NCBI GenBank assembly: GCA_020860745.1
Contig: JAJBTR010000387.1
Coordinates: 1 to 12,469, forward strand
Length of the DNA stretch: 12,469 bases
Direction: 5' to 3'
From: Lachnospiraceae bacterium
Lineage (GTDB): Bacteria; Bacillota; Clostridia; Lachnospirales; Lachnospiraceae
The notes under the pieces were generated by a model. It was not told where the DNA came from and did no database searches. It was given only the letters and a program-made list of their open reading frames with translations. Both the position numbers and the translations under genes were made by a program. Positions 448 to 12,469 of the stretch are shown one piece after another. The first letter of the stretch is position 1. The number at the start of each line of letters is the position of its first letter.

Positions 448-1068
448 TCAGTGACCTTTTAATGCACTCTCATACTGCCGCACCATGCGGTAATAGGTGC
501 TACTGGATAATCCTAATTCATTCATTGCTGCAACGGCTGTGATTTCTCCCCGTTGCCATCTTTCATATACTTCTGCGAATTCCGCCGGGCGCTCCAATCT
601 CGGCCTCCCCAGATGCTTCCCTTTCTTCTTGGCGGCATCAATCCCCTCCTGCTGTCGTTTGCGGATGGTGATCCTCTCCTGTTCCGCGATACTGGCCAGC
701 ACCTCAATCAGAATATTTTGAATCATCTCTATAATCCACTGTTGGCCTTCCGGCACTTCTATTAATGATGTCGGCAGGTCCAATATCTTCAACCGCACTT
801 TATGATCCCGGAACCACTGCAATTCATTTTTGATATCCTCTTTACTTCGTGACAGACGATCCAACGATGTTATAATCAGTGTGTCACCGCCTCTCAACCC
901 CAGCGGGCCTTTTAATGCCTGATACGAAGGTCGCTCTAAATTCTTGCCGCTGGCTTTATCAATCAGGATATTCTCCTCCGGCACATACTCTTTTAACGCG
1001 AGGATCTGCCTGTCCAGATTCTGTTCCTTGCTGCTGACTCTGGCATATCCCATAACTTTGTTCTGCAT
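448..1068 (-). CDS. small serine recombinase (resolvase/invertase type)
   Basis: This 206-residue protein has the full layout of a small serine recombinase, which cuts DNA through a serine-phosphate link to resolve or invert segments. The N-terminal motif GYARVSSKEQ (residues 7-16) gives the nucleophile Ser12 and Arg10. SLDRLSRS (68-75) gives the catalytic arginines Arg71 and Arg74. The long E-helix follows (about 115-145, with AEQERITIRKRQQEG), then GRPRL and a C-terminal helix-turn-helix (about 163-200, GEITAVAAMNELGLSSSTYYR). Length matches the Hin/Tn3-resolvase group, not the large transposon recombinases. The ribosome site GGAGGAAGG lies in the end of the upstream LPD28-like gene, three bases away, so the two are probably translated together. 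No intact paired crossover site is obvious, so resolvase versus invertase cannot be decided. Confidence 0.93.
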   Translation of the reverse strand: MQNKVMGYARVSSKEQNLDRQILALKEYVPEENILIDKASGKNLERPSYQALKGPLGLRGGDTLIITSLDRLSRSKEDIKNELQWFRDHKVRLKILDLPTSLIEVPEGQQWIIEMIQNILIEVLASIAEQERITIRKRQQEGIDAAKKKGKHLGRPRLERPAEFAEVYERWQRGEITAVAAMNELGLSSSTYYRMVRQYESALKGH

Positions 1069-2917: not shown

Positions 2918-3745
2918 TTATGCGGCTCTCCCCTTTGTCCGTTTCAGGCTGCTCAGTGCCCTGCGGTATGTGTCATCATCCATGCTTTCTATACTGCTGA
3001 CGCCGTATCGGCTGAGGACCATGTCAAGAGCGATACCTGTTCTTTCCAGTTCCCTGTTGATCGTCCGGACTTTATCTGGAGCCTGCCTTTCCTCCGCAAT
3101 GATAGATTTCTTCTTTTGGGAATTTGCATAGGAAGCATTTGAAGATTCTGCTCTCTGTGGCTTCGTGTGTAAATCACTTACTATCTCTGAACCGGTATCT
3201 GCCTGCCGGACTGTGGAAATCTGGGTTCCGGATTTGTTCCATAGACGGTAAACCTCCCTGCCATCCTGATTTATGATCGTCAGGCCAATGATCTCACGGT
3301 TTTCATTATAAACAATCTCCGTCACCGTAAATTTGTCATGGCATACCCACTTGTTCCCTTTCTGTTCCATCCGCGTTTTTGACGCCCCGACCCAGATGAA
3401 CGGGGCGGTATACAGCTCCCTGCCGATACCAAGGCTGACACAGGCCCGTTTAAATGAATCCGATGCCTGTCCTTTCTCTTTCTCCGTATAACTCTCCGTG
3501 CCGACATCCTGCTTCTCTATCCACTGATTCTTTTCATCATCCCAAATACTGACCGTGCAGTAGAGGTTACCGCCGATCACTTCATGGCGGCGCTGCCAGC
3601 CTGCAGTACCGTAAACTTCATCCAGTATCTTCATATCCGCACGGGCATCCTTATACAGCAACAGCGACAGCCCTTTTTCGCTGATCATACCTATCCGACA
3701 TTCGATTTCATCTGCACGGAGCAGGCGTATTTCTTTTTTGGCCAT
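2918..3745 (-). CDS. Rad52/Rad22-family single-strand annealing protein
   Basis: This 275-residue protein should bind single-stranded DNA and anneal complementary strands, the partner role to a phage-type exonuclease. The N-terminal two thirds (about residues 10-175) fits the Rad52/22 domain: AGWQRRHEVIGGNLYCTVSI (residues 48-67), then the family hallmark DVGTES (80-85) with EKEKGQASDSFKRACVSLGI (88-107) and GRELY. A charged linker follows (about 175-222), then a C-terminal helical unit (DKVRTINRELERTGIALDMV and YGVSS) that may form a separate contact. The start at 3745 is set by AGGAGG nine bases upstream, inside the 3' end of the DUF3848-like gene; the two frames overlap by 38 bases, which implies coupled translation. 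With the YqaJ-type nuclease and SSB it completes a recombination set. Confidence 0.85.
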   Translation of the reverse strand: MAKKEIRLLRADEIECRIGMISEKGLSLLLYKDARADMKILDEVYGTAGWQRRHEVIGGNLYCTVSIWDDEKNQWIEKQDVGTESYTEKEKGQASDSFKRACVSLGIGRELYTAPFIWVGASKTRMEQKGNKWVCHDKFTVTEIVYNENREIIGLTIINQDGREVYRLWNKSGTQISTVRQADTGSEIVSDLHTKPQRAESSNASYANSQKKKSIIAEERQAPDKVRTINRELERTGIALDMVLSRYGVSSIESMDDDTYRRALSSLKRTKGRAA

Positions 3746-4121
3746 ATTCCTGTTCCTCCTTTCCCATCAGAAAATATGCCGTCATGTTTTTGTTTTCTGA
3801 CGGCACACTTCCTCTCTTCCAATTTTCAGCTGACAGATTTTCAATTTCAGCTTCGACATGTGCTTTCATCTCACTGTAATTGCTGTCCTCTTTTTTCAGC
3901 CACCGGTTATAGCATCCCATCAGGATATTCTTCTGCTGTAACAGTTCCGCAAGAATCTGATCGGACAGCAGCTCCGCTTTCTCCACAAGGATTTCGTAAA
4001 AATTCACGACCGCGTCTATCTCATAACTTCTGGCAAAAATCTCTGCATTCGTTTCGCCCAGAACCGACGCCCTGTATTCCTGATACTCGCCGTAGATACG
4101 GTCTAAAAAATGTTCCTTCAA
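3708..4121 (-). CDS. DUF3848-like protein
   Basis: This 137-residue protein has the pattern of DUF3848, short helical proteins of unknown function on clostridial elements. The visible features are LDRIYGEYQEYRASVLGET, then EIFARSYEIDAVVNFYEIL, LLSDQILAELLQQKNILMGC and YNRWLKKEDSNYSEMKAHVE. I start it at TTG (4121-4119) because AGGAGGGAATCAGA puts a strong ribosome site eight bases before it and no ATG is suitably placed. Its last 12 codons overlap the start of the Rad52-type gene. A segment of about 300 bases with no gene lies upstream and may hold its promoter and control sites. The C-terminal tail after about residue 100 looks variable. Confidence 0.7.
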   Translation of the reverse strand: MKEHFLDRIYGEYQEYRASVLGETNAEIFARSYEIDAVVNFYEILVEKAELLSDQILAELLQQKNILMGCYNRWLKKEDSNYSEMKAHVEAEIENLSAENWKRGSVPSENKNMTAYFLMGKEEQEYGQKRNTPAPCR

Positions 4122-4425: not shown

Positions 4426-4914
4426 CTAATCAAAAGGAAGTTCTTCATCAAAGTTACCCGAAGAATACAGAAAACCATCTGCATCTTCATGTATGCCGCT
4501 CCGCATATGGCTACCTGAACTGTCTTGCAAGCCATGGGAACTTCTACTGCAAATGTCTGCCACGCCATCATTTGCTTCGCCTGACTTCACTGCATTCTTA
4601 CTCTCTGCAAACTCCTGTTCCTCCACCACAACTTCAAAGAACGGCACCTTAATACCATCTTTATTATCGTAGTACCCGGTCTGCACACGCCCCGCGACGA
4701 GCATCTTCATCCCTTTTCGGAGATACTTCTCCGAGAAATCTGCACGGTTCCCGAAAGCGACGATATGAAAAAAGTCTGTGGTGATACCGCCGTCATGCTT
4801 AAACTTCCGGTCAACTGCAAGTGAGTACCGGGCGACAGCCGTTGGGTTCGCCCCCTGTGTATACCTCACTTCCGGATCCCGGGTCAGCCGCCCCATTAAA
4901 ATGATCTTATTCAT
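4426..4914 (-). CDS. ssb: single-stranded DNA-binding protein
   Basis: This 162-residue protein coats single-stranded DNA during replication and recombination. The OB-fold spans about residues 1-103: MNKIILMGRLTRDPEVRYTQ, then ARYSLAVDRKF, DFFHIVAFGNRADF, KYLRKGMKMLVAGRVQTGYY and PFFEVVVEEQEF. A flexible Ser/Gly-rich linker follows (about 104-152), then the acidic tip DEELPFD, which recruits partner proteins in this family; here one Asp follows the usual final PF. The site usually written as W in VVWG/VAWG-type motifs is Phe54. The start at 4914 has AGGAGG eleven bases upstream, over the stop of the exonuclease gene 15 bases away. The pairing fits an element-encoded SSB serving its own recombination system and not the chromosomal replication copy. 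Confidence 0.95.
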   Translation of the reverse strand: MNKIILMGRLTRDPEVRYTQGANPTAVARYSLAVDRKFKHDGGITTDFFHIVAFGNRADFSEKYLRKGMKMLVAGRVQTGYYDNKDGIKVPFFEVVVEEQEFAESKNAVKSGEANDGVADICSRSSHGLQDSSGSHMRSGIHEDADGFLYSSGNFDEELPFD

Positions 4915-4929: not shown

Positions 4930-5862
4930 CTATGCGACCATCAGGCGGCGGTAGCTGCTCTGTGCGAGGAAGCTCTTGTAGATTTCAGGCTCCTCTGCTT
5001 TCAGCCGCTTCGTATCCACGCCGCTCCTGCTGACCTGTTTCCATGTGACAGTCTTATCCCCGACGATGCCTGTCTCTGCCTCTTTCAGATAAAATTTCAG
5101 CTGGTTCGTCGCGGCCGCTTTTGCTGTCTCCAGCTTCTTTAATTCTTCTGAGAGGCGCTCGTACTCCGTACAGACCGGCAGCACCTCATCCGGGAGATGG
5201 ACTGTCGTCCCATCCGACTTGGCAAACCTGCGGTTAAAATAATCTGTCGTTGCTTCGGAACCATCCGGCACCGGCTCCATCCCACCAACAACATATGTCT
5301 CCCAGAAATACTTTTCCATCGCAATGATCTTCCCGATCAGTTCCTCATCACGTTCCACCACATGATGGCAAAAATGGTTGCCGCCGACCAGTGCCGCGAC
5401 ATATGTCCTCTTTGCACCTGTCACTGCCATATAATGCTGCACCTGCAGGATGTAAGGTACGGGTACGCCATCCTCCCAGACATCCTGTTTGTAAGCGGAT
5501 GCTGTCTTTGCCTCAAACACAGCCATTTCACTATCCGGTTCACGGATGACGCCATCCAGATCAGCAAGCATGAACGGGTATTCTTCACTCTGCAGGAGCA
5601 TATGTTTCTGACGTACCTTTATACCAGTACGCTCCGTGAACTCTTTCCTCACGATCGGTTCCAGCAGTGTCCCGAAATGCGCATACTCGCTGTCTGTTTC
5701 CTCCGGTTCCATCTGCCCCGTCTTTTCCAGCCACAGCTGATGGGCGGATTTGAACGGGTTGATTCCCGCGAGAGCCGAGACATCCGAACCTCCGATGCCG
5801 CATGTACGGTACTGCAGCCACTCCTCCCTGTTCAGGTTATTTGTCTTTACAACTACTCTCAT
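4930..5862 (-). CDS. YqaJ-type viral recombinase / exonuclease
   Basis: This 310-residue protein belongs to the lambda-exonuclease-like YqaJ group, which digests double-stranded ends to expose single strands for annealing. The nuclease core is complete: RTCGIGGSDVSALAGINPFK (residues 19-38), GTLLEPIVRKEF with Glu68, LADLDG with Asp103, FEAKT with Glu117 and Lys119, and QVQHYM with Gln142 and Tyr144. A coiled-coil-like segment (about 232-260, ERLSEELKKLETAKAAATNQ) and a short C-terminal domain follow; these are common in element-borne versions. The start at 5862 has GGAGGTGA nine bases upstream. A hairpin with a T-rich tail lies just before it and may attenuate readthrough from the upstream genes. 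It is followed closely by ssb. Confidence 0.92.
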   Translation of the reverse strand: MRVVVKTNNLNREEWLQYRTCGIGGSDVSALAGINPFKSAHQLWLEKTGQMEPEETDSEYAHFGTLLEPIVRKEFTERTGIKVRQKHMLLQSEEYPFMLADLDGVIREPDSEMAVFEAKTASAYKQDVWEDGVPVPYILQVQHYMAVTGAKRTYVAALVGGNHFCHHVVERDEELIGKIIAMEKYFWETYVVGGMEPVPDGSEATTDYFNRRFAKSDGTTVHLPDEVLPVCTEYERLSEELKKLETAKAAATNQLKFYLKEAETGIVGDKTVTWKQVSRSGVDTKRLKAEEPEIYKSFLAQSSYRRLMVA

Positions 5863-6207: not shown

Positions 6208-7137
6208 TTACGCCGCTTTTACCAGACGGTACGCCTTGTCGATCAGCGGGTTGCCGTCCACCGTGCGGGAGAAGAGATTTTCCTTATAATTCTTCGTCCT
6301 GCGGATGGGGTCTGCATGGGTGGCAAAGTCTGACACCGCATTGACAAAACGGTAAGCGTTCTTTCCCACATCCATCAGGTCAGGCGCATCAAAATACCGG
6401 CTGGCAAGGTCTTCCCGCATGCGGCGGGTATTCTTTTTCTGCTGCGGCGTCCAGCTGTCCTCATAGGGGAGCAGCACTTCAATGTATTCCTTCACTTTCC
6501 TGTCATCCAGTTTCTTTTTCCGAAGCTCCTCAAACTCCATGCCGAGGTTCTCCATATAATAATCTGCCATGAAAAGCGTATCACGCGCTTCCTCCATCTT
6601 ACTCTTTATGTCCCCGGTGTGTATCATAGACCATGACCGCTTTGCCGTATCAAGCGCCAGGTTCAGCGTGTTGTTGCACACAACCCGGATCGGCGTCACC
6701 GCCACACGGATGGCGCCGCTCCCGTCATGGCTGTTGGAAAACACCAGATACGGGCTGATGCGGTCCCCCATGATCACAAACTCCTGCGGCATCCGTGCCA
6801 GCATCCAGACCTTGCGCCCTTCCTGCAAAGAACCTGCGGTTTCGTAACGGACACCCTCGCCCAGTAATTCATCCGTAAAGGCAAACGCCTCCTCATTCTG
6901 GACTACCTTGTAACGGTCCGTCACGACACCGAGGACTTTCCGGTCACTGCTGCGGATGTTGGCTTTGTAACCTTCAATATATTCACCATCCGTATAAATC
7001 GGCTCCTGCTCCACCATCCAGTCGAGCCCGGCCATTTTTAAAGCGTTCTTAGAATCCGGTGCCTGCATCACCTTCGTACCTAACCCGTGCCACGGGGTTT
7101 CTCTCACATAAAACATGCTTTCCACATTTGCTGCCAT
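6208..7137 (-). CDS. DUF932 (phage/plasmid-like protein)
   Basis: This 309-residue protein matches the DUF932 / phage-plasmid-like family (TIGR03299 type), whose biochemical role is not established. The characteristic start is present: YVRETPWHGLGTKVMQAPDS (residues 10-29). It continues with VLGVVTDRYKVVQNEEAFAF, EGRKVWMLARMP, PYLVFSNSHDGSGAIRVAVT, PIRVVCNNTLNLAL and a helical C-terminal half ending near NPLIDKAYRLVKAA. It appears full length. The start at 7137 is preceded by AAGGAGAT at a good distance. Homologues are common on phages, plasmids and integrative elements next to recombination genes, as here. It is probably soluble. Confidence 0.92.
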   Translation of the reverse strand: MAANVESMFYVRETPWHGLGTKVMQAPDSKNALKMAGLDWMVEQEPIYTDGEYIEGYKANIRSSDRKVLGVVTDRYKVVQNEEAFAFTDELLGEGVRYETAGSLQEGRKVWMLARMPQEFVIMGDRISPYLVFSNSHDGSGAIRVAVTPIRVVCNNTLNLALDTAKRSWSMIHTGDIKSKMEEARDTLFMADYYMENLGMEFEELRKKKLDDRKVKEYIEVLLPYEDSWTPQQKKNTRRMREDLASRYFDAPDLMDVGKNAYRFVNAVSDFATHADPIRRTKNYKENLFSRTVDGNPLIDKAYRLVKAA

Positions 7138-7251: not shown

Positions 7252-7288
7252 GTAATAGCCTCCTTTCCGCCAGACGGGCATAAAATTA

Positions 7289-7313
7289 GCGGAGCCCGAT
7301 ATAAAGGCTCCGC
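7289..7313 (-). terminator. hairpin ending the zinc-ribbon cassette
   Basis: GCGGAGCC (7289-7296) and GGCTCCGC (7306-7313) pair perfectly, with a 9-base loop. In the minus-strand transcript the stem is followed by TAATTTTATG, a modest T-tract. It is 137 bases past the stop of the last zinc-ribbon gene. A plausible promoter for the next operon lies upstream of it, so the hairpin would also sit in that operon's leader. Its stem nearly matches the terminator at 11761-11798. Confidence 0.6.
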
Positions 7314-7334
7314 CATCCATCTGTTGATTACACT

Positions 7335-7449: not shown

Positions 7450-8613
7450 TCAGTTAAATTCCAGAGAATACTGGTAACTGCACTGCAGGATATCCAACAA
7501 CGCAGCTGAATCCATCCATGTAAATTTATCTTCATCATCCGTAGAAGCTGTCATATAGGAATCATCCTGTTCGGACCATGTCAGTGTAAAAGAAACATCC
7601 TCCCTTTCAGGCATGTCAACATACAAAGTATACGCATCCACAACGGTACATTCATATGTACCAAAATATCCCGCATCATAATAGGTATCCATGCTCCCCA
7701 CAGACACATAGATCGTACCGTCTTCATCCTGCGTCAGGTCCAACCTCCCCGGGACAAGTTCATCATCGTAATAGGAAGGTTCGTAAGTTCCTATTTTCCC
7801 AAGAAACGTCTGCGTCTCTGTTTCTTCTACAGCCTCAGTCTCTACTTCCTCAGAAGTATCCTCTGTGCTGGTATCCTCAGATTCATTTACATCTTCATCA
7901 CCCGCCATGTCCTCTTCCAGAGATGCATTCTCAGATTCCTCCACCGACTTGACCGGCCCGAAATGGCCTTCCAACACAGTCTGGTCCGCCTTATTATCAT
8001 CAGAAACAGCTGTTAGTCCACACTCCGGATGAGAACCGATATAACTCCCATATATGCTGTTTAAAAATGCTGCCAGACCACTTGCAGAATACGAATCGGT
8101 ATCATCTGTAAAGGAGTCAATGCCACTCGCTTCAAAAGTTTCCGAATCATCATCATAAACCGAGAACTGAAGCTCCACATAGTCTTCATTGCAATAATCC
8201 ACGATGTAGTATGTGCCGTCTTCCGATGTGCCATACGTCCATTCACCGCCCGCATACAGATACTCGATCACTTCTTTCACTGTCACGGTATCATAGTCTC
8301 CCAGGTATCCGTTCTGTACCTCCTCACAAAGCTCTGCAGCCCTCGCCGCAGTTTCATCCTCCCCGCCGCTGCCGCTATTCATAAATATCAGAATTGCTGC
8401 AATCACAATGACAACAACAACTACCAATGCAATGATTTTTCCTTTCCCTTTTTTCTTTTTCTTCTCAGGACCCTTCTTTGACGTAGCTTCCGTTTCCTTT
8501 ACAGAACCTACTGTCTCTGCTTTTTTCTCTGCGTTGCTGCCAATCCGGCTTCCGCAGTTCGGGCAGAAAGCTGTCCCTTCCTTTACTTCATTGCCGCAAT
8601 TTGGACAAAACAT
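7450..8613 (-). CDS. zinc-ribbon, single-pass membrane protein with acidic outer domain
   Basis: This 387-residue protein starts with a zinc ribbon (CPNCG at 3-7, CPNCG at 17-21, so Cys3, Cys6, Cys17 and Cys20). A lysine-rich stretch follows (about 46-59), then one membrane helix (60-78, IALVVVVVIVIAAILIFMNS). By the positive-inside rule the ribbon is cytoplasmic and the rest outside. The outer part has one domain (about 85-215), an acidic Glu/Ser/Thr linker (about 220-268) and a second beta-looking domain (about 270-387, with Tyr/Asp repeats such as TYEPSYYDDE). I start it at 8613 because GAGGAGGAAAAGAGT stands directly before ATG TTT TGT, as in its neighbours; the in-frame ATG at 8652 lacks this. 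It is the last gene of the cassette. Function unknown; a sensor or wall-facing partner is a guess. Confidence 0.8.
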   Translation of the reverse strand: MFCPNCGNEVKEGTAFCPNCGSRIGSNAEKKAETVGSVKETEATSKKGPEKKKKKGKGKIIALVVVVVIVIAAILIFMNSGSGGEDETAARAAELCEEVQNGYLGDYDTVTVKEVIEYLYAGGEWTYGTSEDGTYYIVDYCNEDYVELQFSVYDDDSETFEASGIDSFTDDTDSYSASGLAAFLNSIYGSYIGSHPECGLTAVSDDNKADQTVLEGHFGPVKSVEESENASLEEDMAGDEDVNESEDTSTEDTSEEVETEAVEETETQTFLGKIGTYEPSYYDDELVPGRLDLTQDEDGTIYVSVGSMDTYYDAGYFGTYECTVVDAYTLYVDMPEREDVSFTLTWSEQDDSYMTASTDDEDKFTWMDSAALLDILQCSYQYSLEFN

Positions 8614-8653
8614 ACTCTTTTCCTCCTCACACATGGTTTTTATGCAGGCCATC

Positions 8654-9133
8654 CTATATCACAATAATTACAACCACTATAACAATCACGATGAGCGCGA
8701 TTACCATATTCCGTTTTTTCTTCTTAATCTCTTCTCTTGTAAATTCATCCTTTTTTATCCGGGAAAACAGGGATATGAATCCGCCGAGTATACCTAACAC
8801 AGCAGCCACAGTGAAAATCACTCCCATAACAGCACTTCCCTCTGAAAACAAAAGCAGTGCCAGTATAGCAAAAACAATCCCGAGAATAATCTCCAGAATA
8901 TTGCCGGTTTTGATCGCAACCCTGTCAAACGCCGAATACTCCATGCCGCCATCCGGCATATCATCTTCGCGTATGCGATTCTCATCCGGAGTCTCTGCCC
9001 TGGTCTCAGCTTCCCGGACCGGGGAAGCATACATACCCGGTGTTTCATTTACAGGCCATGATACTTTATTCCCGCAGCTCGTGCAGAAGTTCTGGCCTTC
9101 CTGCAGCTCTTTTCCGCATTTCCCACAAAACAT
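8654..9133 (-). CDS. zinc-ribbon protein with three membrane helices
   Basis: This 159-residue protein has a zinc ribbon (CGKCG at 3-7 and CTSCG at 17-21) and a charged linker of about 50 residues. Two adjacent membrane helices follow (about 79-96, ILEIILGIVFAILALLLF, and 101-123, AVMGVIFTVAAVLGILGGFI), then a lysine-rich loop (RIKKDEFTREEIKKKKRN) and a final helix (about 143-159) made almost only of Ile and Val, ending at the C-terminus. TAGGAGATAACAG provides the ribosome site, overlapping the stop of the TM2 gene. It lies 40 bases before the next zinc-ribbon gene. The ribbon is probably cytoplasmic. No named family beyond the ribbon is recognised. Confidence 0.8.
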   Translation of the reverse strand: MFCGKCGKELQEGQNFCTSCGNKVSWPVNETPGMYASPVREAETRAETPDENRIREDDMPDGGMEYSAFDRVAIKTGNILEIILGIVFAILALLLFSEGSAVMGVIFTVAAVLGILGGFISLFSRIKKDEFTREEIKKKKRNMVIALIVIVIVVVIIVI

Positions 9134-9143
9134 CTGTTATCTC

Positions 9144-9749
9144 CTACGCTAAAATATTTCCGTTTTCATCTGCCGGCTGAGCCAGTGCTATGAAAAATTC
9201 GATCAGGGCAATCACAGACGGTATGCATGTCCAGCAAAAGCACAGATATAAAATACCCATACCGATCTTCCCGGAATAGAATTTATGTGCCCCTATCCCG
9301 CCAAGGAAGATAGCCAGCAGACAATAGACAACCTTGCTCACCACTTTTTTGTTGCCAACCATCGTACCGGGCGCCATGGCGGAACCTTTCCCTGACTGGT
9401 TATCATTTGTAATATGGATATTGATCCCGCCGGGCGGCACCTGATTCTGAGCAGACTCTTTCTGTGCCGCTTTGACGACCATGACCTGTGTCTCCGTTTT
9501 AAATATTTCAACGGGGTCGCCGACCTGCGGGACAAAATTCAGGTCACATGCCCGCACCTGCTCAATCCTGCCGCCCGCAGTCCCTATACTGATGATATCA
9601 CCCTGAATTTTGATGATCTTCGCAGCTCCTGCTTTTGCATCCGCACCCGTGTTTGCAGAACGATCACTTACCCTTGCACCGCAATTAGCGCAAAACATCT
9701 CATCCCCCCGGATCTGCTTACCGCAGGAAGCACAATATCGCATAGCCAT
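9144..9749 (-). CDS. zinc-ribbon protein with TM2 domain
   Basis: This 201-residue protein combines a zinc ribbon (CASCG at 6-10 and CANCG at 20-24), a small beta-rich region (about 42-95, KIIKIQGDIISIGTAGGRIE and GDPVEIFKTETQVMVV) and a C-terminal TM2 domain (about 134-191). The TM2 hallmark LGGIGAHKFYSGKIGMGILY is visible, with two membrane helices around a short turn. TM2 proteins occur widely, but their activity is not well defined. The start ATG GCT ATG at 9749 follows AAGGAGATAAGAGT. It lies 36 bases after the previous gene's stop, on the same strand, and its stop overlaps the next ribosome site. Both ends of the protein should be on the same membrane side. Confidence 0.87.
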   Translation of the reverse strand: MAMRYCASCGKQIRGDEMFCANCGARVSDRSANTGADAKAGAAKIIKIQGDIISIGTAGGRIEQVRACDLNFVPQVGDPVEIFKTETQVMVVKAAQKESAQNQVPPGGINIHITNDNQSGKGSAMAPGTMVGNKKVVSKVVYCLLAIFLGGIGAHKFYSGKIGMGILYLCFCWTCIPSVIALIEFFIALAQPADENGNILA

Positions 9750-9785
9750 ACTCTTATCTCCTTAAAAATTAATATCCTATGTTCT

Positions 9786-10412
9786 TTACTTAAACAGACC
9801 TTTCGCCGCTTTCTTGAATTTAGTCATCGTAAGCGCGCCATACTGGTACCGGATATTTTTCTCATGGTCTGTCAGATAGATATACGCACTGTTTGTGACA
9901 TCCAGGCTCATCTTGCTTCCGGCTTTACCCATGTAATATGTCACAATCGTCCAGCGGCCATCCTTACTCTCGATTCTCCGGTTACCGGCCACGACCCCCT
10001 TACCCATGACAACTGCCTCCAGTTTTTTCAGTCCCTTCGGGTCATCCGCATACTGCGGGATAATGTACTTGCCGATCAGTTTCGCAATATCCTCCGGCTC
10101 TACCTGATAGCTCTGCAAATCCTCATTGCCTAAGACTTTCCGGCTAAAACCCGTCCTTGCCTTATTGCCGATCTTTTCTTTTTTGATCGTCATACCGGCC
10201 AGATCGTCGTCCTCCGTTTCCGGAATATCATTCAATCCGATTTCCGGCTCTTCCGTAACCGACTCTGACTCCTGCCGGCGTTTTTCCGCCGCCTGATTAT
10301 CCTGGTCTTCAGAAAACTCTGCCTGATTAACCGGCACGACCACTCTGGCTCCGCAGTTCATACAGAATTTAGCGTTATCTGACAATTCACTTCCACAATT
10401 CATACAAAACAT
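9786..10412 (-). CDS. zinc-ribbon protein with soluble C-terminal domain
   Basis: This 208-residue protein begins with a zinc ribbon (CMNCG at 3-7 and CMNCG at 17-21). A long acidic, probably disordered linker follows (about 30-72), then a compact domain (about 75-208) without membrane helices: VEPEDIAKLIGKYIIPQYAD, then AVVMGKGVVAGNRRIESKDG, RWTIVTYYMG, KMSLDVTNSAYIYLTDHEKN and a basic end TKFKKAAKGLFK. The domain looks alpha/beta, but I do not recognise it. AAGGAGAAGAGCT supplies the ribosome site. It follows the GTPase gene by 35 bases and is the only clearly soluble member of the four ribbon proteins, so it may link the GTPase to the membrane members (inference). Confidence 0.82.
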   Translation of the reverse strand: MFCMNCGSELSDNAKFCMNCGARVVVPVNQAEFSEDQDNQAAEKRRQESESVTEEPEIGLNDIPETEDDDLAGMTIKKEKIGNKARTGFSRKVLGNEDLQSYQVEPEDIAKLIGKYIIPQYADDPKGLKKLEAVVMGKGVVAGNRRIESKDGRWTIVTYYMGKAGSKMSLDVTNSAYIYLTDHEKNIRYQYGALTMTKFKKAAKGLFK

Positions 10413-10447
10413 AGCTCTTCTCCTTTCATTTTTCCACTATGATTCTG

Positions 10448-11590
10448 TTATCCAAAGATATTTTCTATAAAACCTTTAACAGCTCCGCATAGGCCACCAA
10501 CCACAAAACCCACAGCCAAACCGGGTATTCCTATTATGACTCCTCCAATCACGCCGCCAGTCTCTGCGCCATCCTCCATACAGCATCCGATGGATTCCCA
10601 AAAACCAAGCCGGGTTTTTTCTTTGTAATCAGCTTCTTCATCATCATGAAGCCACTTGTCCTCATCGACATTAATATTATCTGCTATAGCCAGCCTCTTA
10701 TCTTTCGGTATCGACCGGATAATGTAATAAAGAAGCTTCGTCAGGTTATATGGCTTACACTGTTCTTCTCCGTCCTCTTTATAACCGGCACAATAATATA
10801 TAGGGCGCACAGAAATTCCTGTTCCTTCTTTAATTCTGGTTTCGACCGACTTTGCCTTTTGTTTTAAATATTTCAGCAGGACTTCATCAGGGACATTATT
10901 TTCTACATCCCAATGTTTTCCTTTCATTGCCACGTCAGCCTGATTGATTCCGATGAGAATCCGGCCTTCCCTGTCATCTCCAAGGCAAGGGATGATGACG
11001 TTATTAATCAGGTCATATGATGTGCCAAGATCCTTTGACGAGGCATCTAAAACGACTAATACCAGATCAATCAATGGATCGCCATTTTCATCCAGCTCAC
11101 TTAACTTCCTGATGATCATATTATTATATTTTTCATCAGAGTGAACTCCATCACCAAGACCCGGCGTGTCCCAGATTGTCAGGTTATCCAGCACATAGCT
11201 TGTAATATAATCCGTCTCCGGCTCTACGCGAACTCCCACCGTTGCCCCTTCCATATTAAATTAGGCATGAAGCGTGGAACTCTTACCGCTTCCCGTGGCT
11301 CCAACTAATATGATATTTACTTTCTTTTCCCGCATCCTGATCAGTCTGGAAAGCTGATTATTTTTTTCATGTACAGGCAAATCTGAAGACATAATATCTT
11401 CTTCCAGAAGTTCAAAAATGCTCTTTCTCGGTTCTGCATTCTGGTCTGTTTCTGCCTCAGTTTCAGGAGAATCAGCATCTTCTATCTTTACATCACTTAC
11501 CGATTCCGGTGTGGTCATCTCAGGAATAACATTATCGCCACCTGATATCTCATTTGTGTTTTCAAAAACTGTTCCATTCGTTTCTTTCAT
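10448..11590 (-). pseudogene. YfjP/dynamin-like GTPase, interrupted by an in-frame TAA
   Basis: The intact protein would be about 380 residues. It has an acidic disordered N-part (about 1-70), a P-loop GATGSGKS (97-104), the G3 motif WDTPGLGD (about 140-147), NQAD in the place of NKxD (about 215-218), and a C-terminal glycine zipper (about 336-380, with GGVIGGVIIGIPGLAVGFVV and GGLCGAVKG) of a kind that can insert in membranes. After STLHA a TAA (11261-11263) ends the first 109-codon part; the same frame continues FNMEGATVGV for 270 codons. Relatives have ALFN/AVFN-like sequence there, so TAA most simply replaces a TTA Leu codon by one base change. The second part has an ATG at 11254 but no ribosome site and would lack the P-loop. 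The gene starts at ATG 11590 behind GGAGGAGA. It is the first gene of the cassette. Confidence 0.82.
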
Positions 11591-11676
11591 TGTCTTCTCC
11601 TCCGCATGATAAAAAATTTGTTTTTAATTGCACAATGATTTACATTGATGTCTCTTCTTCTTTGTTTCACAATCCG

Positions 11677-11685
11677 AGTATAGCA
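11677..11685 (-). promoter_or_regulatory. candidate extended -10 element for the GTPase cassette
   Basis: On the minus strand TGCTATACT (11677-11685) fits an extended -10 element (TGnTATAAT type), about 87 bases before the GTPase start. No good -35 box is present at 16-18 bases. The imperfect palindrome GACAATATATGTC (11694-11706) directly upstream could be an operator. The call rests on sequence resemblance only. Confidence 0.35.
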
Positions 11686-11727
11686 GGGAGGATAGACATA
11701 TATTGTCGCTGTGAATGGTTTTCTGTA

Positions 11728-11761
11728 GAAAATCCAGATAAATTTGTATTTTTGGATTTTC
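11728..11761. repeat. 9-bp perfect inverted repeat
   Basis: GAAAATCCA (11728-11736) and TGGATTTTC (11753-11761) are perfect inverted arms around a 16-base AT-rich loop. It directly follows, in the minus-strand sense, the T-run of the terminator at 11761-11798 and precedes the candidate promoter. It may be an operator or a second, weaker transcript-end structure. Confidence 0.45.
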
Positions 11762-11798
11762 GAGCAAAAAATCAGCGGAGCAGTAATCATGCTCCGCT
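11761..11798 (-). terminator. strong intrinsic terminator
   Basis: AGCGGAGC (11774-11781) and GCTCCGCT (11791-11798) form a perfect 8-bp GC-rich stem with a 9-base loop. On the minus strand the stem is followed by GATTTTTTGC, a run of six T. It would end transcripts of the membrane gene that stops at 11943 and separate it from the GTPase cassette. Confidence 0.85.
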
Positions 11799-11942: not shown

Positions 11943-12469
11943 TTAATTAACACACATATTTTTTTCAGTTGTATATAAACCACTGTGCTGATAGCCATAT
12001 CTCATTAGTTCCTCCTCTATTTTGTTTAGCTTCTCTATCTCGCCGCTTATTTTTTCATATATTCTATTTTCACCAAATTCCTTCTTCACATTAAGCAAGA
12101 ACCTCATATCCCTGAACAAATGAGCAATCGTCACTAATAAACCGCCGATATCGACACCTTTTGCATTCTGCGTAAGATACGCGGCAATCAAATTACTGCT
12201 TGTACCAATTGTATTGGCAATTAATAATATTTTTCTTGTCCTGACCTCAAACAAATCCCTGCTGCCATCTTTCTGCGAATCATAATACAACCCATGAACT
12301 AATCCAATTATAGTAACTATTAAAATAGAAATAGCCGCAGATTTTCCTATGATTTTAACATCTCTGGCAAAACACAGAGCATCATAATGTTCTTTGTATA
12401 GATTGCTCGCAAAATCTGGCGCAAATGTCTCGACAACAGGAACCGGAAAACCCCTTTTTGTAGTTATAT
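11943..12469 (-). CDS. membrane protein, 5' end beyond the window
   Basis: The frame is open from the right window edge (first whole codons ITTKRGFPVPVVETF) to TAA at 11943, giving about 175 residues of C-terminal part; a TTG at 12290 is inside the gene and is not its start. Hydrophobic segments are SAAISILIVTIIGLVHGLYY, ILLIANTIGTSSNLIAAYLT and VDIGGLLVTIAHL, suggesting two or three membrane helices. An amphipathic charged tail follows (RFLLNVKKEFGENRIYEKIS, then EIEKLNKIEEELMRYG). A strong terminator lies about 145 bases after the stop, so it belongs to a separate transcript from the GTPase cassette, though it could be functionally linked. I do not recognise the family. Confidence 0.75.
   Translation of the reverse strand, partial: ITTKRGFPVPVVETFAPDFASNLYKEHYDALCFARDVKIIGKSAAISILIVTIIGLVHGLYYDSQKDGSRDLFEVRTRKILLIANTIGTSSNLIAAYLTQNAKGVDIGGLLVTIAHLFRDMRFLLNVKKEFGENRIYEKISGEIEKLNKIEEELMRYGYQHSGLYTTEKNMCVN

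Follow-up and report, generated by a model that had tools for sequence, protein, structure and literature searches.

The 12,469-nucleotide (nt) contig JAJBTR010000387.1 of a Lachnospiraceae bacterium (GenBank assembly GCA_020860745.1) is analyzed here as a whole and is denoted as the window. All genes discussed lie on its minus strand, among them a unit of one GTPase gene and four genes for zinc-ribbon proteins (R1 to R4, in the order of transcription). Comparison of related sequences gives good support to the view that this unit fills a variable slot, which is framed by a leader and a downstream hairpin and is followed by a DUF932 gene and a phage-type recombination module. From the recombinase gene and the variable slot together, we infer that the slot probably belongs to a mobile element. 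It is tentatively proposed, with slightly less than even confidence, that it is a mosaic cargo slot for exclusion-type envelope proteins in this probable clostridial element.

A variable slot in front of a recombination module

The unit comprises five minus-strand members at 11590-7450, the GTPase gene being followed by R1, R2, R3, and R4 (coordinates of the open reading frames, ORFs). The unit and its frame consist of the following features:

11774..11798, minus strand: terminator-like hairpin 5' of the unit, behind a gene running off the contig end (9 pairs, T-rich tail)
11658..11731, minus strand: leader, probable promoter region of the slot (82% identity over 74 nt to L149 10630-10701)
10448..11590, minus strand: YfjP/AIG1-like GTPase gene, frame interrupted by a TAA at codon 110 (unbroken relatives include P0002 and P0003)
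9786..10412, minus strand: R1, ribbon and alpha/beta soluble domain, almost unknown family (Pfam, database search)
9144..9749, minus strand: R2, ribbon, small beta domain, and TM2 membrane hairpin (Pfam, alignment)
8654..9133, minus strand: R3, ribbon and three hydrophobic helices (sequence; remnant of both ends in L057 1832-1930)
7450..8613, minus strand: R4, ribbon, Lys-rich linker, transmembrane helix, "NGYLG" outer domain, acidic stretch, and C-terminal beta barrel
7287..7315, minus strand: terminator-like hairpin 3' of R4, kept in L057 and L149
7174..7251, minus strand: mini-ORF of 25 codons preceding DUF932, with a ribosome site; identity of 76% in L057 and L149 (shorter than the 50-residue limit of the ORF list)
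6208..7137, minus strand: DUF932 protein, first larger backbone gene (Pfam)
4930..5862, minus strand: YqaJ/RecE-like exonuclease, backbone (Pfam)
4426..4914, minus strand: single-stranded DNA-binding protein (SSB), backbone (domain search)
2918..3745, minus strand: Rad52/ERF-like annealing protein (annealase), backbone (domain search)
448..1068, minus strand: serine resolvase/invertase-type recombinase (Pfam)

The original prediction, made from the letters of the window, had described an adjacent same-strand unit with spacings of 10 to 40 bases and a ribosome site for each gene. This description is borne out by the coordinates, by gaps of 35 (GTPase-R1), 36 (R1-R2), 10 (R2-R3), and 40 nt (R3-R4), and by GGAG-type ribosome sites at all five starts; as had also been proposed, the five genes probably constitute one transcription unit. 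The last gap assumes that R4 starts at Met 14 of the listed ORF (coordinate 8613), its probable start, which has a ribosome site; the start set by the ORF caller is 8652, 1 nt from R3. In the direction of transcription, the unit is followed by the hairpin, the mini-ORF, DUF932, a small gene, YqaJ, SSB, a second small gene, the annealase, DUF5688, and the serine recombinase, with further short ORFs present. Since the hairpin at 7315-7287 is kept in two sister loci, separate transcription of the unit and DUF932 is probable. A common stem (GCGGAGC..GCTCCGC) is found in this hairpin and in the one at 11798-11774, for which L057 and L149 have no counterpart at the matching place. The leader match in L149 (E 7e-14) sits 46 nt upstream of the lipoprotein gene of that locus; no match to the leader was found in L057. 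Scans for promoters and terminators were discarded as evidence in their own right, as they were uninformative against shuffled sequences (11 promoter-like sites vs 13.2 in shuffles; 5 terminator-like sites vs 3.8, a number not above chance), and only the conservation of the one hairpin is counted.

Three loci of the same genus, i.e. the window, L057, and L149, share DUF932, p5939, YqaJ, SSB, annealase, DUF5688, and the hairpin behind the slot. Identities to the window amount to 94% (DUF932), 83% (YqaJ), 66% (SSB), and 70% (annealase) in L057 and to 96%, 85%, 74%, and 70%, respectively, in L149. The predicted element-like setting was supported in that phage-type recombination genes (DUF932, YqaJ, SSB, Rad52/ERF, resolvase) adjoin the unit, and the order of the first four is kept in both sister loci. 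DUF932 was detected in 3/20 genus and 11/150 family genomes (three of the 11 weak) and in 77 viral loci, of which L072 and L073 were examined.

The content of the slot differs between these loci. In front of DUF932, L057 harbors R1 (36-40% identity) and R4 with two relics between them and without the GTPase. Its R4 consists of ribbon, helix, NGYLG domain, acidic stretch, and a YARHG end. The first relic corresponds to roughly the final 34 codons of a P0130/P0131-type tail (62-67%). The second retains both ends of R3 but has lost its middle; one end matches at 82% over 60 nt, and the other covers about 29 nt within a 148-nt match extending into R4. Because L057 holds R1 and R4 with this remnant of R3 between them, the sequence R1-R3-R4 appears as an inherited, eroding order. 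The slot of L149 is occupied by a single lipoprotein-like gene, whose product has an unrelated N-terminal part without ribbon and is 87% identical to R4 over its last ~140 residues. About 1.4 kb upstream of this slot, L149 encodes a CAP12/Pycsar-type TIR protein and BrxL (12143-15315), which is in line with a defense or exclusion role. A role in defense, stress, or membrane remodeling had been suggested for the cassette: the envelope location stands and the TIR/BrxL genes would fit defense or exclusion, and the function as such is putative.

Bodies and anchors of the ribbon proteins

The prediction of four different bodies, namely a soluble one (R1), a TM2 protein (R2), a three-helix protein (R3), and a single-helix protein with an acidic outer part (R4), proved correct. 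R1 has no hydrophobic helix and belongs to a family of six proteins in a large database, the cluster of the window itself included; it was found in 2/20 genus genomes and in 1/150 family and 1/392 order genomes, each time its own. R2 is a member of the TM2 family (PF05154) with 62.2 bits against a cut-off of 27.9. A search of plasmids and viral contigs, the places covered for R3, gave no match.

The body of R4 occurs in 2/150 family genomes, one of them weak. Its C-terminal domain is predicted with low confidence to fold as a beta barrel of lipocalin-like build, and between the window and L149 it shows nonsynonymous (dN) and synonymous (dS) divergences of 0.085 and 0.78, i.e. purifying selection (dN/dS ~0.11). 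Both outer domains of R4 are also found on lipoprotein-like proteins without ribbon, namely P0131, whose NGYLG domain is 63% identical to that of R4, and P0132, the protein of L149 (lipoprotein signals and the swap of anchors were judged by eye). Because these ribbon-less versions look like lipoproteins, the outer domains of R4 very likely face outwards.

TM2 relatives in phage lysogeny modules and the exclusion reading

Both TM2 proteins and membrane proteins with zinc ribbons are common in Firmicutes, mostly with no explained role. Phage relatives of R2, which come from an annotated phage collection, provide a hint at a function. R2-type TM2 genes were present in 42 of 50,697 phage records, 14 of the 42 from Streptococcus, and ten of the 42 records were inspected. 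In each of the seven inspected streptococcal temperate or satellite records, a repressor-type regulator and the integrase flank the TM2 gene, in some cases with additional genes intervening (up to four in the satellite Javan43); LF1 and Javan7 are laid out alike. Such phage slots commonly carry exclusion genes. The body of R2 is 37% identical over 157 residues to the ribbon-less TM2 protein of phage Javan227. In Javan383 (L218 2489-3256), TM2 is fused to two Lipoprotein_Ltp repeats (PF07553, E 4.8e-43), and the annotation of the protein reads putative superinfection immunity protein. In the gut phage MT835973 (L220 4001-4447), which is unannotated, a protein with two ribbons and TM2 is encoded between a helix-turn-helix (HTH) regulator and a phage integrase. 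In the stretch of MT835973, an ORF at 478-996 without Pfam match has a start that resembles the annealase of the window by eye.

Excerpts from the published account of phage TP-J34 describe Ltp as a lipid-anchored protein with a spacer and a repeat domain, which keeps phage DNA from being injected and whose gene belongs to the lysogeny module (PMC3952083). In the gene table of the same account, ltp is listed before the metalloproteinase and repressor rows, in an order starting with the integrase (PMC3952083). The gene thus occupies the repressor-integrase interval in which the streptococcal TM2 genes lie; the cassette is therefore most simply read, by analogy, as exclusion cargo. Both position and fusion enter into this reading, and the step from them to an exclusion function is inferential.

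The slot in this copy holds four ribbon genes, of which three encode membrane proteins, and a GTPase gene that probably went out of frame recently. R2 is held in the membrane by its TM2 hairpin. R4 probably exposes two outer domains on a stalk, whose anchor is a ribbon with a helix here and a lipid in sister copies. Like Ltp lipoproteins, these membrane and surface proteins would block DNA delivery by a competing phage or element. The outer domains would be swapped by recombination, and the GTPase would have been an additional, separable module. A more specific version of this proposal, which is regarded as doubtful, envisages an element-borne exclusion locus in gut clostridia, where a framed, recombining slot would exchange outer recognition domains among different anchors (ribbon and helix, TM2, or lipid) and so change targets; the ribbons would serve as generic adaptors to a shared host partner, not to each other.

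Several observations weigh against the exclusion reading. Bacillus phage PM1 and Enterococcus phage KEN20, the two non-streptococcal annotated records inspected, have the TM2 gene elsewhere. TM2 is widespread in chromosomes, and the R2 body was detected in 24/150 family genomes, mostly by its TM2 part only. The Ltp domain (PF07553) is absent from the complete lists of family matches for R1 and R2 and is not among the 25 best of the 27 families for R3 or of the 35 for R4. Scans of viral contigs with R1, R2, R3, and an alignment of R4 (one pattern only) confirmed no relative, and the cassette as such was thus not seen in viruses. PADLOC returned no convincing match for R1-R4, with one match of R3 to LeoBC (E 0.005), probably due to its hydrophobic helices. 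R1 and R3 are without informative relatives, and the joining of genes on public contigs (see below) rests on equal contig size.

The same envelope proteins might instead be housekeeping sensors, with a TcaA-like R4 sensing the state of the wall or of a ligand, R1 to R3 acting as relay or scaffold, and the element carrying them as a fitness trait. Proteins of the ribbon/YARHG and TcaA-like type in Firmicutes do share the N-terminal ribbon, the Lys-rich linker, the single helix, and an outer domain with R4, and R4 of L057 ends in YARHG. However, the R4 of the window has a different C-terminal barrel and is no TcaA (NF053815), with 30.6 bits against a cut-off of 550. Sister versions without ribbon imply that signaling through the ribbon is not essential, and the relatives of R2 reside in phage lysogeny modules. 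The sensor explanation is considered unlikely.

The GTPase gene and the question of decay

The first gene had been described as a YfjP/dynamin-like GTPase ending in a glycine zipper. The C-terminus is indeed glycine-rich; the gene, however, is not intact. An in-frame TAA at codon 110, directly after the P-loop, divides it into pieces of 109 and 268 residues, with a new ATG within a few codons of the stop, so that the window copy does not provide an intact YfjP/AIG1/IIGP-like domain in one frame. Its intact relative P0003 passes as such (MMR_HSR1 39.6, AIG1 36.9, and IIGP 30.1 bits). With 34.4 bits against a cut-off of 325, P0003 is not a LeoA-type dynamin-like GTPase (NF041922), and PADLOC matches it chiefly to LeoA/LeoBC around the P-loop.

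When aligned with 120 relatives, the window departs at three of the 103 columns whose conservation reaches 97% or more. This number is not extreme by itself, as the relatives depart at 0-5 such columns (median 0). Two of the departing residues are near the stop, at columns conserved in 120/120 and 117/120 relatives, and because of this proximity they are taken as signs of decay. The C-terminal part differs from the L008 protein of the same genus (84%) by a dN of 0.088 and a dS of 1.63; selection therefore acted until recently, and any loss is recent. The GTPase of the window is, judged from the stop and the change at an invariant column, probably dead. A sequencing or assembly error may also account for the stop, given a draft genome of 430 contigs in which DUF5688 is seemingly split as well, but the two odd residues nearby speak for decay. 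The two DUF5688 pieces lie in different frames (1642-2358 and 2283-2540) and both match one longer L154 gene, which seems to reflect either real decay or an assembly error.

Intact relatives are numerous, at least 2287 proteins being found in the large protein database at E values up to 0.001. The GTPase was detected in 2/20 genus, 6/150 family, and 10/295 order genomes (own genome counted; several of the order matches weak or partial) and in seven plasmid records, all from Proteobacteria; annotated phages gave no match, and a scan of viral contigs confirmed no relative. Within the stretches analyzed, its neighbors include a WYL-type gene at seven loci (the WYL identity was shown for the L010 member), a HerA-like ATPase at five, dynamin-like GTPases at three, and a nuclease at two. 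A second GTPase of the family directly adjoins at 16/29 loci; two or three stand side by side in L012, L014-L023, L042, L046, L047, L051, and L052, and one plasmid pair adjoins csm6, cas1, and cas2. Varying subsets of WYL, dynamin-like, HerA/DUF87 ATPase, and DNA/RNA non-specific endonuclease genes accompany the GTPase in L008, L044, L049, L039, and L040. Clostridia GTPase loci with WYL, dynamin-like, and HerA/DUF87 genes constitute a candidate defense locus. The genes for DUF932, GTPase, and YqaJ stand side by side in L045; judged from few loci, GTPase and DUF932 may be old neighbors and the ribbon genes later arrivals.

These signs of erosion raise the alternative that no joint function exists and that unrelated ribbon genes and a dead GTPase accumulated and decay in a recombination-prone slot. 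The stop in the GTPase, the apparent split of DUF5688, and the survival in L057 of the ends of R3 only speak for such an accretion, as does the presence of N-terminal ribbon genes in just one (L057) of the 12 DUF932 loci examined, two of which are viral. Yet the C-terminal domain of R4 is under purifying selection, the four ribbon genes retain clean ribosome sites and intact frames, and R1 is accompanied by R4 in L057 and, by equal size, maybe on two public contigs. A mere accretion is given little credence.

Ribbons and co-occurrence of the five families

Four ribbon genes in a row had been noted, and this holds: all read exactly CxxC-x10-CxxC in the translations and exceed the 25-bit cut-off of PF13240 (Zn_Ribbon_1) with 39.8 (R1), 27.8 (R2), 30.6 (R3), and 34.3 bits (R4). 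The 3.1-Mb genome contains 19 PF13240 matches on 9 contigs, and four within 1.9 kb at this locus are more than expected by chance. The other ribbons of the genome are fused to bodies named by eye as sigma-factor-like, peptidase-like, FHA-like, TPR-like, and others. In L178 (295-2715), for instance, an N-terminal ribbon precedes an ECF-type-sigma-like part, a helix, and a long outer part (by eye), and L176 (3910-4167) holds a seemingly truncated second copy of this ribbon-sigma-like protein.

To call the four ribbons "nearly the same", as the original prediction did, overstates their likeness, since they are 25-45% identical outside the four Cys residues. The mean non-Cys identity is 0.35 within the set vs 0.30 between the set and ten further N-terminal ribbons from this genome, and the value of the set is reached by 25% of the 1001 possible four-ribbon subsets of the 14 ribbons. 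The ten comparison ribbons were picked by eye; six of the 15 PF13240 matches outside the set were left out, namely four that belong to a single multi-ribbon protein, an internal ribbon, and a ribbon whose frame contains a stop. One comparison ribbon (contig C97, 760-residue protein) was recognized by pattern only. A set-specific tag was thereby rejected, the likeness not exceeding that of random sets of the genome's ribbons. Recent duplication, with decayed bodies, was rejected as well, as the ribbons of R1 and R4 are each closest to those of their own family (identities of 0.70-0.90 with five R1 and R4 relatives from elsewhere). From these comparisons, the ribbons are best described as small, exchangeable N-terminal modules.

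The ribbons had been suggested to act as docking tags for a membrane complex under control of the GTPase. In favor of this are the probable operon, a 6240-base public contig that the GTPase P0003, the R1 protein P0124, and the lipoprotein-like P0131 may share, and L010, where ribbon genes stand just before a 59% identical GTPase, the neighbor there having several C-terminal ribbons. P0127 (R1) and P0130 (R4) may likewise share a 4257-base contig; in both cases, linkage is deduced from equal size. Against a docked complex, the GTPase is broken, the ribbons are not specially alike, versions of the R2 body and of the R4 outer domains exist without ribbon, and L057 has R1 and R4 without GTPase. 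An N-terminal ribbon gene within 6 kb accompanies the GTPase in 1/28 loci with usable ORFs (L010; many loci are cut), and the GTPase keeps other company. The four-ribbon array is absent from the 29 GTPase loci outside the window (27 genomic, two from plasmids; many cut by contig ends), and with the different slots of L057 and L149 this speaks against a conserved five-gene system. The five families do not travel together, and homologs are largely scattered, each without the others. A docked, GTPase-controlled complex is improbable. An envelope module for conjugation or competence, to which nearby recombination genes and a weak likeness of R3 to the pilin-like conjugal family NF045849 might point, is very improbable, as this match (21.4 bits vs a cut-off of 40) is far too low and probably due to hydrophobic helices, and no relaxase, coupling protein, or VirB-type gene was found among the scanned ORFs (2283-2540 and 3708-4121 lying outside the scan).

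A phage or plasmid origin of the cassette was also considered and dropped: scans of viral contigs with the GTPase, R1, R2, R3, and the alignment of R4 confirmed no relative, and the plasmid search with R3 was empty.

Comparison with known systems

Among the closest known counterparts are the Ltp-type superinfection-exclusion proteins of temperate streptococcal phages (TP-J34 Ltp; PF07553). These are likewise phage-borne, anchored in the membrane or by a lipid, and composed of a spacer and an outer domain, and the TM2 relatives of R2 occupy the same phage slot, one of them fused to an Ltp domain. In contrast, the ribbon proteins lack this domain and have ribbons added, several genes are present in place of one, and the slot of the window lies before DUF932 and not between repressor and integrase. 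The phage TM2 proteins (PF05154; Javan227, Javan355, MT835973) resemble R2, whose beta domain and TM2 both take part in the alignment with Javan227, and MT835973 has ribbons too; the streptococcal versions read here, however, are without ribbon, and the role of phage TM2 proteins is putative. The YfjP-YfjQ pair (GTPase-DUF932) of the Escherichia coli island CP4-57 shows the same broad kind of GTPase, an adjacent DUF932 gene, and anti-phage genes on the island, but only 29% identity over 167 and 28% over 72 residues, and no ribbon genes lie between the two.

Should the exclusion locus prove true, the swap of ribbon, TM2, and lipid anchors would supply a testable criterion by which further exclusion proteins could be sought, and the fusion of TM2 to Ltp would offer a direct handle on the role of phage TM2 proteins. 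Should it prove false, the striking motif of four ribbon genes in a row would still be a mosaic, and N-terminal ribbons should not be taken for complex-specific tags.

Further observations

No publication on the five-gene layout was found among titles and the starts of abstracts, a coverage that excludes most subscription journals, and the window contains no tRNA or match to Rfam families. At its far end (11943-12467), with no Pfam or PADLOC match, the window encodes the C-terminal part of a membrane protein, which runs off the contig and has a G+C content of 36%.

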